A stretch of DNA of 64,000 nt from Acidimicrobiia bacterium (GTDB lineage: Bacteria; Actinomycetota; Acidimicrobiia; Acidimicrobiales; Poriferisodalaceae). Location: contig JAJDTF010000158.1 in assembly GCA_022827265.1 (NCBI GenBank), forward strand, positions 1 through 64,000, written 5' to 3'. Under the pieces are notes generated by a model. The model worked only from the letters and a program-made list of their open reading frames with translations. It was not told the DNA's origin and searched no databases. Shown one piece after another: positions 34,927-59,718 of this stretch (the first letter of the stretch is position 1; each line of letters opens with the position of its first letter). The position numbers and the translations under genes are program-made.

Positions 34927-36270
34927 GTGAGGATTCTCGTGGTGGGGGCCGGCGAGGTCGGAAGCTACATCGCCGAGCGCCTCAGCCGTGAGGGCAACGA
35001 TGTCATCGTCATCGACCGGCACTCGCGGCGCCTCGACGCCCTCGCCTCCGAAGTCGACCTGCTCACCGTGAACGGGAGCGGCACCAATCCCAGCGTGCTC
35101 ACCGAGGCCGGCCTTGAACGTGCTGAGGTCGTAGTGGCCGTCACCGATTCCGACGAGGTCAACCTGCTCGTGTGCATGCAGGCGAAGCAGGCAGGCGTGC
35201 CGGCGACCGTGGCACGGCTGCAGGACGGTGACTTACGCGGTGCGCCGGGTCGCGGCCTGCGAAATGCGATCGGCGTCGACTTGGTGCTCGATCCCGATGA
35301 GCAGACCGCCGACGCCATCATGGATCTGCTCGTGTACCACGGGGTGACGGACATCAACGAGCTCGCGAACGGCGAAGTGCTGGTCGTGGGTGCGCGCCTG
35401 GCGGAAGATGCCCCGCTGGTCGGCAAGACGATGGCCGAGATCGGCGCGTACTACGAGCCGGAATGGGACTTCATCTTCGGCGTGCTGTCGCGCGGCGGTG
35501 ATGTCACCGTCATGCGCCGTGAGACCACGCTGCAGCCGCACGACTTGCTCAGGGTGGTGTGCCGGCGTCAGGGGCGGCGTGAGCTCATGGAGATCATGGG
35601 GCTGAGCCGTTCAGACTTGCGTCGCGTGATGATCCTGGGCGGGGGACGCACGGCTGGCCTGCTGGCCGGTCGACTGCTCGAGCGTCACATTGAAGTCGTC
35701 ATCATCGAGCAGCACCATGAGCGCTGCCTGGAGCTGAGCGAACGTCACGCAGGCGCGCTCGTGCTGCATGGTGACATCACCGATATCGACGTGCTCGCAC
35801 GCGAGGGCGTCGGCACCTTCGATGCTGTGGTGGCAGTGACCGGAGAAGACGATGCCAACGTCTTGGCCTGCCTGTATGCCAAGTCTGAAGGGGCTACCGA
35901 GACCATCGCTGTGGTGCATCGCCTGTCCTTGCTGCCGTTGCTGGAGCAGGTGGGCATCGACGCGGCGCTGTCGCCCCGCACGGCCAGCGCCAACATGGTC
36001 CTGCGGATGGTGCGCGGAGACGTCACTGCGGTGGCGACCTTCCTCGAAGGCGATGTCGAAGTCCTGGAATTCGAAGTGGGTGCCGGTTCGAGCGCCGACG
36101 GTTCGTTCGTGCGGGAACTTCACCTGCCCGGCCAGATGCTGCTCGCCGCGATCGTGCGGGATGGCAAGGCCCGCATTGCACGGGGCCGTAGCGAGCTGAG
36201 GGCGCGGGACCACGTGGTTGCCTTTGTGACGCCTGACTGCGTGGACGAGGTCAAGCAGGCCTTTCGGTGA
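34927..36270 (+). CDS. trkA: Trk potassium transporter regulatory subunit TrkA
   Basis: The 447-residue cytoplasmic ring protein has two RCK halves. The first NAD site is MRILVVGAGEVGSYIAERLSREG with the acidic VIVID, and the second is VMILGGGRTAGLLAGRLLE with VVIIEQ. Each is followed by a TrkA-C domain (about residues 140-220 and 365-447). It gates the TrkH channel in response to nucleotides. The start is GTG, and the stop overlaps the next gene's GTG (GTGA). It is the first gene of a three-gene potassium locus. Confidence 0.92.
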   Translation: MRILVVGAGEVGSYIAERLSREGNDVIVIDRHSRRLDALASEVDLLTVNGSGTNPSVLTEAGLERAEVVVAVTDSDEVNLLVCMQAKQAGVPATVARLQDGDLRGAPGRGLRNAIGVDLVLDPDEQTADAIMDLLVYHGVTDINELANGEVLVVGARLAEDAPLVGKTMAEIGAYYEPEWDFIFGVLSRGGDVTVMRRETTLQPHDLLRVVCRRQGRRELMEIMGLSRSDLRRVMILGGGRTAGLLAGRLLERHIEVVIIEQHHERCLELSERHAGALVLHGDITDIDVLAREGVGTFDAVVAVTGEDDANVLACLYAKSEGATETIAVVHRLSLLPLLEQVGIDAALSPRTASANMVLRMVRGDVTAVATFLEGDVEVLEFEVGAGSSADGSFVRELHLPGQMLLAAIVRDGKARIARGRSELRARDHVVAFVTPDCVDEVKQAFR

Positions 36271-37943
36271 CACCCCGTCCGGCTCGCCGGGCTACCGAGC
36301 GCGAAAGGCTCCGCCGCCTGGTGGTGCGGGTGGTGCGGGCCGCCGACGGCCTGCTGCACAGGTGGGCACGCGGACCGTACGAGTCGACGCTTGCCATCAC
36401 GGCTTTGGTTGTGCTGGCCGCCGCCTCGCCGGTGTTTGCGATCTGCGCGGTGTTCGACTGGCTGTTCGGCGGACGGGTTGCTGCGAGCGGCGAGTCAGGC
36501 ACTGATGCCTTGCCGCTGCTGGTTGCCGGTGCTGCCGTCGCGCTGTTCGCCCTGGGGCTGTTGCGACTGTGCCGGTTCGAGCGGCGCGTCACCGAGCGCC
36601 AGACTTTGACGGCGCTGGTGCTCGGATCATTCGCGGCGGTGGCCGCCGTCGCGATTGCACATCTCGCGACCGGCGCTGTGGAGCCCGGTGCGTTGGCAAC
36701 CGCATTTGCCGAAGCGGCGGCGACGGTGACCGGCACCAACAGCACGACGATCTCGGGGGCTGATCTCGGCGGCGGGATGCTGGCACTGCGAGCAGTGGGG
36801 CAGTGGCTGGGCGGGGCAGCATTCATCGTGGTGCTCGTCCGCGTGCTGCCCCATCTCGGTGTCGGCGGCCTGGACACGGACGGGGGAGTGGCGACCCGAT
36901 CGGCTCGCAGGCTGGCACCCCGCAGCGCCGGCACGATGGGTCGCCTCTTGCTGCTGTACGGCGTGCTCACGGTGCTGGTTGCAGTCGGCTTTGCACTAGC
37001 CGGCATGCCGTTGCTGCAGAGCGGGCTGCACGCGCTGACCACGGCCTCGACCGGCGGTTTCTCCACGCAGGAGGCCTCCCTGGGCGCATTCGACTCAGCA
37101 GCGATCGAATGGGTGGCGATCTTCGGCATGGCGGCGGGAGGAGTGAGCCTGCCGCTCATGTTCTTGGCGATCCGCCGCCGTGACCCGGCCCGGTTCATTC
37201 GCAGCTACGAATTCCGGCTGTACATGACGCTGATCATCTTTGCCGCGGTGGCTGTGGCGCTGTTGCCACGCGACGGCGTCGACTGGACGCACATCTTCGG
37301 CCGCGAGCACATCCGTGAATCGCTGTTTGCAGTGGTGTCGGTGATCTCGACCACCGGCTTCCAGACCACACCGCTCGTTGAACTGTCGACGGGCAGCCAA
37401 GCGTTCCTGATGGTGCTCATGCTGGTCGGCGGCATGAGCGCGTCGATGGCCGGCGGTTTCAAGGTGGTGCGGCTGCTGACACTGGCGTCCTTCATCGGAC
37501 GGGAACTGCGTCGTGCCATCTACCCGTCGCTGGCCGAACGGCTGCGCCTGGGCCGCTCGACCATCTCCGAATCGACGATCGGCCGCATCACCGGAGAGCT
37601 GCTGCTTGCATCGCTGCTGATCATCCCTGCCGCCGTACTGCTGGCTGCCAGCGGGCTGAACATCGTCGATGCACTGACCTACGCCGTGTCCACGCTGTCG
37701 AACGTCGGACCTGCGATGGCCGCCGCGGACTCGACTGGGCACTTGGCCGTCGCGGGCTCGACCGGGCACCTCGACGCGGTCAACGGGCTCGGTCGCATCA
37801 CGGCCGGGCTGCTCATGATGGGCGGGCGCATGTCGGTGACCGCCGCGGCTGTGGCGCTGAGCGTCGCGGCCTATCCGGCGGTGGCCGCCGTGCGGCATGG
37901 GCAGTGGCGTCGGCGCAGGCCTCACGGAGTGCGAGTGCGATGA
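36267..37943 (+). CDS. TrkH-like cation channel subunit, divergent paralogue
   Basis: The 558-residue membrane protein has the four M1-P-M2 repeats of the TrkH/KtrB family. Pore-loop segments are TVTGTNSTTISG (P1), TTASTGGFSTQ (P2), VISTTGFQTTP (P3) and TLSNVGPAMA (P4). P2-P4 keep the filter glycine; P1 aligns with TCTGATI of the second paralogue and has Asn in its place. A basic N-terminal extension of about 40 residues is present, and a 27-bp internal duplication gives STGHLAVAGSTGHL after P4. It is coupled to trkA and to the second trkH by 4-nt overlaps. Potassium or sodium selectivity is uncertain. Confidence 0.85.
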   Translation: MTPRPARRATERERLRRLVVRVVRAADGLLHRWARGPYESTLAITALVVLAAASPVFAICAVFDWLFGGRVAASGESGTDALPLLVAGAAVALFALGLLRLCRFERRVTERQTLTALVLGSFAAVAAVAIAHLATGAVEPGALATAFAEAAATVTGTNSTTISGADLGGGMLALRAVGQWLGGAAFIVVLVRVLPHLGVGGLDTDGGVATRSARRLAPRSAGTMGRLLLLYGVLTVLVAVGFALAGMPLLQSGLHALTTASTGGFSTQEASLGAFDSAAIEWVAIFGMAAGGVSLPLMFLAIRRRDPARFIRSYEFRLYMTLIIFAAVAVALLPRDGVDWTHIFGREHIRESLFAVVSVISTTGFQTTPLVELSTGSQAFLMVLMLVGGMSASMAGGFKVVRLLTLASFIGRELRRAIYPSLAERLRLGRSTISESTIGRITGELLLASLLIIPAAVLLAASGLNIVDALTYAVSTLSNVGPAMAAADSTGHLAVAGSTGHLDAVNGLGRITAGLLMMGGRMSVTAAAVALSVAAYPAVAAVRHGQWRRRRPHGVRVR

Positions 37944-39511
37944 GCGGCCTGGCAGTGCTGGGGGGACGACGCTTCGAATCCACCCCAGTGCACATCAGTG
38001 GGGTGGCACTGATGTTCGTGGGGATCGGCATGGCGATCTCCGCCGTTGTCGCGCTCATCGACGGCGGCGGAGGTGCGCTCGCGCTGGGAGCGTCGGCGGC
38101 GATCACCGCAGGGGTGGGCAGCGCCATGAACCGCAGCACGACAGCGTCGGACCGGGCGGATTCCCCGCTGGCGTTTGCTTCCGTGGCATGGGCGTGGCTG
38201 GCCGTTTCGCTCGCCGGAACGATGCCGTACCTGTTCAGCGGCGTGATCGGATGGAGCGAGGCCGACAACGCGCTGTTCGAGTCCATCTCGGGCTTCACCT
38301 GTACGGGTGCCACGATCCTGGCCGATATCGACGGGGTTGCTCACGGAATCCTCTTCTTTCGCAGCATGACCCAGTGGTTCGGCGGCATGGGCTTGATCGT
38401 GCTCGCAGTGAGCGTGCTGCCCGCTTTGAAGGTGGGCGGCTTGGAGCTGATTGCCAACGAGGCACCGGGTCCCACAGCCGATCGCTTCACGCCGCGCATC
38501 GCCGCGACGGCCCGCCGGTTGTGGATGCTGTACGGCGGATTCACGCTGGCGGTGGCGCTTGCACTGCTGGCAGCGGGAACCAGCCTGTTCGACGCGGTGG
38601 CACACGCGTTCACCACCGTGGCAACCGGAGGTTTCTCGACGCACTCGGCATCGATTGCATTCTTCGACTCGGTGGCCGTCGAACTGGTGATCATCGTCGG
38701 CATGATCACCTGCGGAGCGAGCTTCTCGATCCATTGGCACGTGATCACACGCGCCAAATCGCAGCGCCGGAGCTATTCGGAGTTGCGCTGGTACTTGGCG
38801 CTCATCTGCGGTGCCGCCGTTGCTCTGCTGGTGCTGAATTCAGGGAAGCTCAGTCTCGGCGACAACCTGCGGGAGGCGGCGTTCTACGCAGCCTCGCTGG
38901 GGTCCAATACCGGCTACGGCCTCACCGACTATGCGGATGAGCAATTCTGGACACCCTCGGCGCAACTGGTGCTGCTGGCCCTGTTCGTGATCGGCGGCAT
39001 GACAGGCTCGACCGCGGGCGGCATCAAGGTGCTGCGCTTGCAGATCGTGGCCCGCTACGCGATCCGGGAGGTCATCCGTGCTCGCCACCGCAGGGCCGTG
39101 CTGCCGATGCGCCTCGGCGACACCACCGTGGCCGAGGACGTCGCAGCCCGCGCACTGGGCTTCGTGCTGCTGTACTTGGGCCTCGCGCTGGCGGGCGGTG
39201 TGTTGATGACTGCGCTGGGCAACGATCTCGAAACGGGATTCTCCGGCGCTGTCTCGGCCATCGGCACCGTCGGCCCGGCGCTGGGCGAAGCGGGGCCGAC
39301 CTCTTCAGCGCTTGCGTTCGAACGCGGGTCTCGGCCGGTGATGATGGTGCTCATGCTGTTCGGCCGCCTTGAGGTATTCCCCACCATGCTGATGTTCGTG
39401 GCTGCGGTGCGTGCCGCCACCCGCTCGCGCAATCAGCGCCCGACCACCACACGCGGACCCCGCCGGCTCACACGGCTCCCTGCGCGCAAGGGAGGTTGGT
39501 CAGGAAACTGA
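37940..39511 (+). CDS. trkH: Trk potassium uptake channel subunit TrkH
   Basis: The 523-residue membrane protein has the TrkH fold with all four filter glycines: SGFTCTGATILAD (P1), TTVATGGFSTHSAS (P2), SLGSNTGYGLTD (P3) and AIGTVGPALGE (P4). FRSMTQWFGGMGLIVLAVSVLP and GGMTGSTAGGIKVLR are typical family segments. ATG 37940 overlaps the preceding paralogue's stop (ATGA). It forms the potassium pathway controlled by TrkA. Its 3' end overlaps the convergent GerMN lipoprotein gene by 12 bp. Confidence 0.93.
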   Translation: MSGLAVLGGRRFESTPVHISGVALMFVGIGMAISAVVALIDGGGGALALGASAAITAGVGSAMNRSTTASDRADSPLAFASVAWAWLAVSLAGTMPYLFSGVIGWSEADNALFESISGFTCTGATILADIDGVAHGILFFRSMTQWFGGMGLIVLAVSVLPALKVGGLELIANEAPGPTADRFTPRIAATARRLWMLYGGFTLAVALALLAAGTSLFDAVAHAFTTVATGGFSTHSASIAFFDSVAVELVIIVGMITCGASFSIHWHVITRAKSQRRSYSELRWYLALICGAAVALLVLNSGKLSLGDNLREAAFYAASLGSNTGYGLTDYADEQFWTPSAQLVLLALFVIGGMTGSTAGGIKVLRLQIVARYAIREVIRARHRRAVLPMRLGDTTVAEDVAARALGFVLLYLGLALAGGVLMTALGNDLETGFSGAVSAIGTVGPALGEAGPTSSALAFERGSRPVMMVLMLFGRLEVFPTMLMFVAAVRAATRSRNQRPTTTRGPRRLTRLPARKGGWSGN

Positions 39512-58318: not shown

Positions 58319-59718
58319 GCGCCCCCGACCTGGCGCCCGCAGACGGGCCGGTCGTCGTGGTGGGCATGGGAGTGACTGGACGCGCGGTCGCCTCCGCTCT
58401 CGCGTCGCGCGGTCATGAGGTGATCGCGGCGGACGACCGACCAGGCGAAGCGGCGCGCAGACTTGCCGGGCAGGAAGCTGCATTCGGCGAGATTCACGAC
58501 TCCACCGATGAGGCACTGCTCAGCAACCTGGTCTCGGCCGCCGCGGCTGTGGTCCCCGCTCCGGGCGTGCCGCCGCGACACCTCAGCTACTCGCTGGCGG
58601 ATGCGGCCGGAGTGCCGGTGGTGAGCGAGCTGGATCTGGCAGCACAGTGGGACAGTCGACCTCTCGCAGCGATTACGGGCACCAACGGCAAGACGACGGT
58701 CACGGTCCTCACGGAGAGAATGCTGAACCGGAGCGGAATCTCCGCTGTCGGCGCCGGCAATACAGATATCGCCCTGGTGGACGCTATTGACCGTGAGGTC
58801 TCCACGTTTGTGGTGGAGGCATCGTCATTCAGGCTGCACCGGGCGCGCAGATTCGCTCCCGCTGTCGCTGCGTGGCTGAATCTGGCCCCTGATCATCTCG
58901 ACTGGCATCCTGACCTGCTCGAGTACGCCGCTTCCAAAGCCAGGATCTGGGCGGCGCAGGGCCCCGACGACGTCGCAGTAGTGCCCTTCGGCGACACCGA
59001 TGTTGAACCGTGGACGTCGGGGATCCGTGCACGGCGTGTGACCTTCGCGACGCCCCAGCAACTTGGGGCACCGTGCGATGTGCACTACGAGCGCGGCGTC
59101 TTGGTCGCCCATGGCGACAGCATTGCGACGGTGGCGGACTTGCCCCGACGGCGTCCCCATGACTTGTCGAATGCCGCCGCTGCAACGGCTGTTGCACTGG
59201 AGATGGGTGCATCCGCCGAGGCGGTGGCGACGGAGTTGCGGTCATTCGATGGCCTGCCTCACCGGCTCGCATTCGCAGGTCGCGTCGGAGAGGTGAGCTT
59301 TTACGACGACAGCAAGGCCACGGCGCCGCACGCCACGGTGGCAGCGCTGCGCGGCTTTTCCGATGCGGTGCTGATAGCGGGCGGCCGGAACAAGGGTCTC
59401 GATCTCGGAGAGCTTGCCGCCGTTGCCGCGCACGTTCACGGGGTTGTGGCGATCGGTGAGGCCGCTGGCGAGGTTGTCGACTGCTTCAGCCAGCCAGCGT
59501 GCGGCCAGATCGAGCTCGTCCGGGCCGATTCAATGCCAGAGGCTGTGGAGGCTGCCCACCGGATGGCGCAGCCCGACCGCGATGTGGTGCTGTCGCCCGG
59601 GTGCGCTTCGTTCGACTGGTACTCGAGTTATGGCCAGCGGGGTGAGCACTTCAGCACGGCCGTGGCGCATCTCGCTGAGCGCATGCGCTCACGCCCTTCG
59701 ACCGGAGACAAGCAATGA
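58315..59718 (+). CDS. murD: UDP-MurNAc-alanine D-glutamate ligase
   Basis: The 467-residue Mur ligase starts at a GTG overlapping the mraY stop; the frame is open far upstream inside mraY but only as a shadow. Segments are VVVVGMGVTGRAVASALASRG, AITGTNGKTTVTVLTERML, NLAPDHLDWHPDLLEYAASK, YDDSKATAPHATVAAL, and LSPGCASFDWYSSYGQRGEHF, the last being the MurD C-terminal motif. It adds D-glutamate to UDP-MurNAc-L-Ala in the cytoplasm. The stop overlaps ftsW (ATGA). Confidence 0.95.
   Translation: MSAPDLAPADGPVVVVGMGVTGRAVASALASRGHEVIAADDRPGEAARRLAGQEAAFGEIHDSTDEALLSNLVSAAAAVVPAPGVPPRHLSYSLADAAGVPVVSELDLAAQWDSRPLAAITGTNGKTTVTVLTERMLNRSGISAVGAGNTDIALVDAIDREVSTFVVEASSFRLHRARRFAPAVAAWLNLAPDHLDWHPDLLEYAASKARIWAAQGPDDVAVVPFGDTDVEPWTSGIRARRVTFATPQQLGAPCDVHYERGVLVAHGDSIATVADLPRRRPHDLSNAAAATAVALEMGASAEAVATELRSFDGLPHRLAFAGRVGEVSFYDDSKATAPHATVAALRGFSDAVLIAGGRNKGLDLGELAAVAAHVHGVVAIGEAAGEVVDCFSQPACGQIELVRADSMPEAVEAAHRMAQPDRDVVLSPGCASFDWYSSYGQRGEHFSTAVAHLAERMRSRPSTGDKQ

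Follow-up and report, generated by a model that had tools for sequence, protein, structure and literature searches.

A TrkH paralogue with a replaced P1 filter glycine accompanies a canonical TrkH in trk operons of Acidimicrobiales

The window analysed here, a stretch of DNA of 64,000 nucleotides, carries a potassium uptake operon in which the gene for the gating subunit TrkA is followed by genes for two TrkH-type proteins, TrkH1 and TrkH2. In TrkH1 the glycine of the first pore loop (P1) of the selectivity filter is replaced by Asn158. K+ selectivity is attributed to the four filter glycines of Trk, Ktr and HKT proteins, and P1 is known as the sodium switch in plants. By sequence comparison TrkH1 belongs to one ancient bacterial paralogue clade, always found with a normal copy, in which exactly the P1 residue was replaced in several ways and the remaining filter was kept. 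The P1 replacement is family-wide, with Asn as one of three recurrent replacements. TrkH1 and TrkH2 form an obligate pair with an asymmetric filter. In this actinobacterial order, most of whose members are uncultured, the principal K+ uptake operon codes for two different channel proteins, one with its P1 glycine nearly always replaced, and this points to a possible division of labour within one uptake system.

A preliminary description of this DNA gave the order trkA-trkH1-trkH2, the gene coordinates and the overlaps of 4 nt, and all of these were exact on re-checking (Table 1). The overlapping nucleotides are GTGA for trkA/trkH1 and ATGA for trkH1/trkH2. The trkA product scored 397.8 bits with the NCBIfam TrkA equivalog model, which has a cut-off of 293. 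TrkH1 and TrkH2 share 32% identity over 501 aligned positions. The window belongs to an Acidimicrobiales MAG and corresponds to contig 89 of its assembly (3.8 Mb, 93% complete); the close named relatives are Acidimicrobiia/Acidimicrobiales MAGs. TrkH1 and TrkH2 are the only TrkH proteins in the assembly, and neither KdpA nor Kup was found in the 93% that it covers (ca. 7% may be missing), so that the trk operon is its sole K+ importer among the families searched.

Table 1. Genes of the trk operon and filter and gating positions of the two TrkH proteins, in window coordinates
Feature	Position	Strand	Remarks
trkA	34927..36270	+	double-RCK gating subunit; sole TrkA in operon; two TrkA_N and two TrkA_C stretches
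trkH1	36267..37943	+	TrkH paralogue, Asn at P1 filter position; GTG start, 558 aa
trkH2	37940..39511	+	canonical TrkH, four filter glycines; ATG start, 523 aa
TrkH1 Asn158, P1 filter position (VpTrkH Gly113)	36738..36740	+	AAC codon; AAC in 10/10 genus members compared
TrkH1 P2 filter glycine G264	37056..37058	+	Gly in 40/40 TrkH1
TrkH1 P3 filter glycine G364	37356..37358	+	Gly in 40/40 TrkH1
TrkH1 Lys399, D3M2 intramembrane gating loop (GGFK)	37461..37463	+	aligned with VpTrkH GGMK
TrkH1 P4 filter glycine G481	37707..37709	+	Gly in 39/40 TrkH1
TrkH1 gating arginine R521 of D4M2	37827..37829	+	Arg in 37/40 TrkH1
TrkH2 P1 filter glycine G123	38306..38308	+	Gly in 41/41 TrkH2

Both proteins match the Pfam TrkH family (PF02386, cut-off 27), TrkH1 with 105.4 bits and TrkH2 with 187 bits, and both score below the cut-off of 331 for TIGR00933, the NCBIfam TrkH family potassium uptake protein (168.9 and 246.6 bits, respectively). 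The AlphaFold2 model of TrkH1, computed from a 56-row alignment, had a pLDDT of 84.6 and a pTM of 0.87. It shows the TrkH fold with four M1-P-M2 repeats and matched VpTrkH (6v4k_A) with an E-value of 2.3e-18 and a TM-score of 0.88 of the target; the TrkH2 model had a pLDDT of 82.4. The D3M2 loop of TrkH1 (GGMSASMAGGFKV) and R521 align with VpTrkH. TrkH2 has glycine in all four pore loops (G123, G231, G325 and G445), as previously described, whereas TrkH1 has it in P2-P4 only. With Asn158 at P1, TrkH1 does not count as a canonical TrkH K+ channel and was classified as a variant-filter paralogue with the TrkH fold. It is not a class I plant HKT, which has Ser at P1 (SGGG) and an HKT sequence, since its P1 residue is Asn and it matches TrkH far better in both sequence and fold. 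It is not a KdpA either, PF02386 being its sole Pfam match. The loop following P4 in the TrkH1 model (window 37728-37776) is of low confidence and contains a repeated STGHL motif (DSTGHLAVAGSTGHLDAV) that is not seen in TrkH2.

In a phmmer comparison with TrkH sequences from the PDB, the P1 stretch of TrkH1 (AFAEAAATVTGTNSTTI) aligned without gaps to AFFESFSALTTTGATVI, which places N158 at G113 of VpTrkH. A misalignment, with G156 as the true P1 filter glycine, is very improbable. The TVTG sequence ending in G156 does resemble TCTG of TrkH2 and lies two residues upstream, but this register would require a deletion of two residues after Glu149, which is invariant. The homologues form a series with constant spacing (GFTTTGATV, GFTTTSLTV, GFTTTALTV, CTTNLSV, TVTGTNSTT), and the intermediate members GFTTTALTV, GFTTTSLTV and CTTNLSV contradict a filter role of G156. 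Structure prediction of the two single proteins had been proposed as a check in the preliminary description, and the helix ends of the AlphaFold2 models put N158 of TrkH1, not a glycine, at the filter. The P1 helix of TrkH1 ends at residue 155, with N158 at +3 and G156 at +1, and the filter glycines are at +4 in each of P2-P4, whereas that of P1 in the TrkH2 model is at +3. The earlier assignment of Asn to the P1 filter position and Gly to P2-P4 is therefore borne out by solved TrkH structures, by ca. 70 homologues and by the AlphaFold2 models.

Residue counts were made on 40 non-redundant TrkH1 proteins with at most 80% mutual identity, 41 TrkH2 proteins and 13 single-copy TrkH proteins. The P1 residue of TrkH1 was always Ala (19), Ser (8), Gly (7) or Asn (6), i.e. 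it differed from Gly in 33 of the 40. Glycine was found in all 40 at P2 and P3 and in 39 at P4, and the gating Arg in 37. TrkH2 had Gly at P1, P2, P3 and P4 in 41, 41, 40 and 41 proteins and the Arg in 41, and each of the 13 single-copy proteins had Gly at all four positions; P1 was Gly in 54/54 TrkH2 and single TrkH of the order. The restriction of P1 to A, S, N and G together with the retained glycines at P2-P4 indicates a local and constrained change, not general decay. The relevant property at P1 is the replacement of glycine, most commonly by Ala, rather than the presence of Asn as such, and the seven TrkH1 proteins with Gly show that TrkH1 can have its role without the change. The clade thereby offers a natural mutant series, with A, S, N or G at one site, for probing the role of the P1 glycine. 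The Lys of the intramembrane loop (GGxK) occurs in 4/40 TrkH1 (most have Arg instead), including that of the window, versus 40/41 TrkH2 and 13/13 single TrkH. Among TrkH proteins from the class and phylum scans P1 was Gly in 64/65. The exception (L197, genome G352) is a single-copy TrkH adjoining trkA with Ser at P1 (FTTTSSTIL); L196 (genome G324), a relative within its family, has Gly.

Whether Asn itself is conserved among orthologues, a point raised in the preliminary description, depends on the range considered: Asn occupies P1 in each of the other 15 close relatives sampled (L033-L037 together with the named MAGs L113-L126, of which four represent the same contigs), and over the whole clade P1 is most often Ala, as counted above. 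Asn at P1 arose independently in other families too. The change is thus not unique to the window genome. Within the genus dN/dS was 0.12-0.17 for TrkH1 and 0.07-0.14 for TrkH2. TrkH1 is under purifying selection without sign of decay, and its occurrence in independent MAGs together with these ratios rules out decay or a sequencing artefact.

Quick trees, with SH-aLRT values as the only support, were built without the P1 columns. TrkH1 formed one clade (SH-aLRT 99) and so did TrkH2 (SH-aLRT 98). The single-copy GGGG proteins, along with some few from other classes, grouped with TrkH1 (SH-aLRT 98), so that the P1 glycine would most simply be ancestral and lost in TrkH1. The Gly-bearing TrkH1 proteins are nested inside the clade, which implies that on a few occasions Gly was regained or was lost in parallel. 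On the larger tree six changes between Gly and another residue were counted at P1. In the analysis of the non-redundant proteins the P1 letter changed at least ten times on the tree. Mean pairwise identity, taken over the same genomes, was 31% for TrkH1 versus 45% for TrkH2, and TrkH1 was the faster evolving protein in 560 of 561 genome pairs.

For the distribution of the pair, 198 genomes were sampled from the order. A TrkH1 match was present in 72, and regions were fetched from most of these and their TrkH genes extracted. Both trkH1 and trkH2 were found in 52 sampled genomes and in the window, and 13 genomes had one GGGG trkH; in this set no genome had TrkH1 without TrkH2 or TrkH2 without TrkH1. 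The overlap was exactly 4 nt in 39 of 69 trkH1-trkH2 pairs, the starts of the others having been chosen automatically and possibly being off. A literature search for tandem or heteromeric TrkH, or for TrkH of Acidimicrobiia, gave no match, with most subscription papers outside its reach. In one family of the phylum scan (f98; L185-L189, L222-L228) TrkH carries Ala at P3 (TGTAFST, GGAG). Some genomes encode this protein in tandem with a GGGG TrkH; in others (G368, G389, G438) its gene lies next to trkA and it is the sole TrkH found, which rules out a normal partner as a general requirement of an altered filter.

VpTrkH of Vibrio parahaemolyticus is a homodimer in which every protomer has its own pore and a TrkA ring does the gating (PMC6987127); the filter glycines of TrkH come together inside the pore, whose gate consists of the intramembrane loop and an Arg (PMC5449183). 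The window proteins share with VpTrkHA (PDB 3pjz, 4j9u, 6v4j-l) the fold, the four M-P-M repeats, the intramembrane loop, the gating Arg and the TrkA partner. VpTrkH is a GGGG homodimer, whereas the window encodes two paralogues, one of them NGGG. The explanation that we favor, with a probability of roughly 45%, is that trkA-trkH1-trkH2 encodes one TrkA-gated K+ uptake system with two pore subunits, a normal TrkH2 and a TrkH1 with a relaxed filter, most likely as a heterodimer on one TrkA ring. TrkH2 would provide the conventional K+ pore with a GGGG filter. TrkH1 would go back to a second TrkH that split off anciently and in which the P1 glycine was lost close to the origin of its clade. Since the remaining filter and the intramembrane gating loop are kept, as is in most cases the gating Arg, TrkH1 most likely still conducts, and its relaxed P1 site may confer a lower K+ affinity and/or weaker selectivity. 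A heterodimer is judged most likely because TrkH1 and TrkH2 always occur together and have one TrkA in common; it would be a double-pore channel whose pores differ from each other. Only tentatively do we extend this to an obligate heterodimeric Trk, with one TrkA ring gating a GGGG and an (N/A/S)GGG pore, that is fixed across most of an actinobacterial order.

The obligate pairing could alternatively result from the common operon, with the proteins having no physical contact, and the pair raises the question whether heteromeric double-pore Trk channels are possible. Regarding the preliminary proposal of two different channels or a mixed complex, the differentiation of the filters is strongly supported, the P1 glycine being lost across the paralogue clade and all four glycines being kept in the partner. 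In view of the co-occurrence, the single trkA in the operon and the gene overlaps, it is plausible that the two proteins form a shared or mixed complex with TrkA.

Two separate homodimers using a common TrkA, with TrkH2 as a high-affinity K+ pore and TrkH1 as a low-affinity or Na+-permeable one, in the manner of E. coli TrkH/TrkG or class II/class I plant HKTs, appear somewhat unlikely. TrkH1 and TrkH2 are never apart and their genes mostly overlap, which favors a fixed ratio, whereas TrkG and TrkH of E. coli do not share an operon and form no tandem obligate pair. In two genomes (G058, G131) trkA-trkH1 is on one contig and TrkH2 on another, which is compatible with separate homodimers. A further argument for them is that E. 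coli has two TrkH-family pores of differing properties in one cell, TrkG importing Na+ and TrkH not; there, each pore loop keeps the conserved glycine and Na+ dependence differs via other residues (PMC9898762). In plant HKTs P1 alone varies between class I (SGGG) and class II (GGGG) and P2-P4 are conserved, Ser at P1 going with Na+ selectivity, with exceptions (PMC7918770). Some TrkH1 proteins are in effect SGGG. The window TrkH1 has Asn, and the HKTs are much more distant from it in sequence and in fold (TM-score 0.54-0.63 of the target). Plant HKTs are not known to have a TrkA partner.

We consider it unlikely that the P1 substitution is nearly neutral for selectivity, TrkH1 being a K+ pore that tolerates small P1 residues, with K+ coordinated by backbone carbonyls and not by the glycine itself. 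The Gly-bearing TrkH1 proteins and the repeated letter changes at P1 would fit such tolerance, but the invariant P1 glycine of TrkH2 and single TrkH in the order indicates that the position is not generally free. In KtrB, changes of filter glycines reportedly lower affinity and selectivity (Tholema 1999 and 2005, as cited in PMC9898762), and one such change to Ala is reported in the 1999 study to lower the affinities for K+ and for Na+ by two orders of magnitude. Tolerance is also suggested by the lone GGAG TrkH of f98 and by KdpA, a member of the same superfamily that has no glycine in P1 (TNTNWQ; N112-T-N-W-Q116, invariant in nine KdpA) and is highly K+-selective (PMC12629597). Both of these cases likewise disfavor a simple sodium switch in TrkH1. 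KdpA has an Asn two positions ahead of Q116, its entrance residue. It differs in being a subunit of a P-type ATPase pump (KdpFABC), and alone it does not support uptake (PMC6255902). In hhalign comparisons TrkH1 aligned with KdpA profiles from P2 on only (P2-P4) and with low probability; an equivalence of KdpA Asn114 with the P1 site of TrkH1 is a lead. A non-conducting TrkH1 that serves TrkH2 as a structural or regulatory partner is quite improbable. Its faster evolution and the rarity of the intramembrane-loop Lys in the clade would agree with such a role, but the almost invariant P2-P4 glycines and gating Arg would be needless in a dead pore, and the window TrkH1 retains the Lys.

Extra TrkH2-type copies occur in a few genomes (G013, G057, G099). 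Three tandem trkH genes are present at L041 (G013) and L074 (G057), one of TrkH1 type with Ala or Ser at P1 and two of TrkH2 type, and one TrkH2-type copy at L041 has Ala at P3. Outside the trk operon, further TrkA_N (RCK) domain matches were found at window positions 58351-58539 and at G000:C122:14141-14473; these possibly belong to regulators of K+ channels or antiporters.
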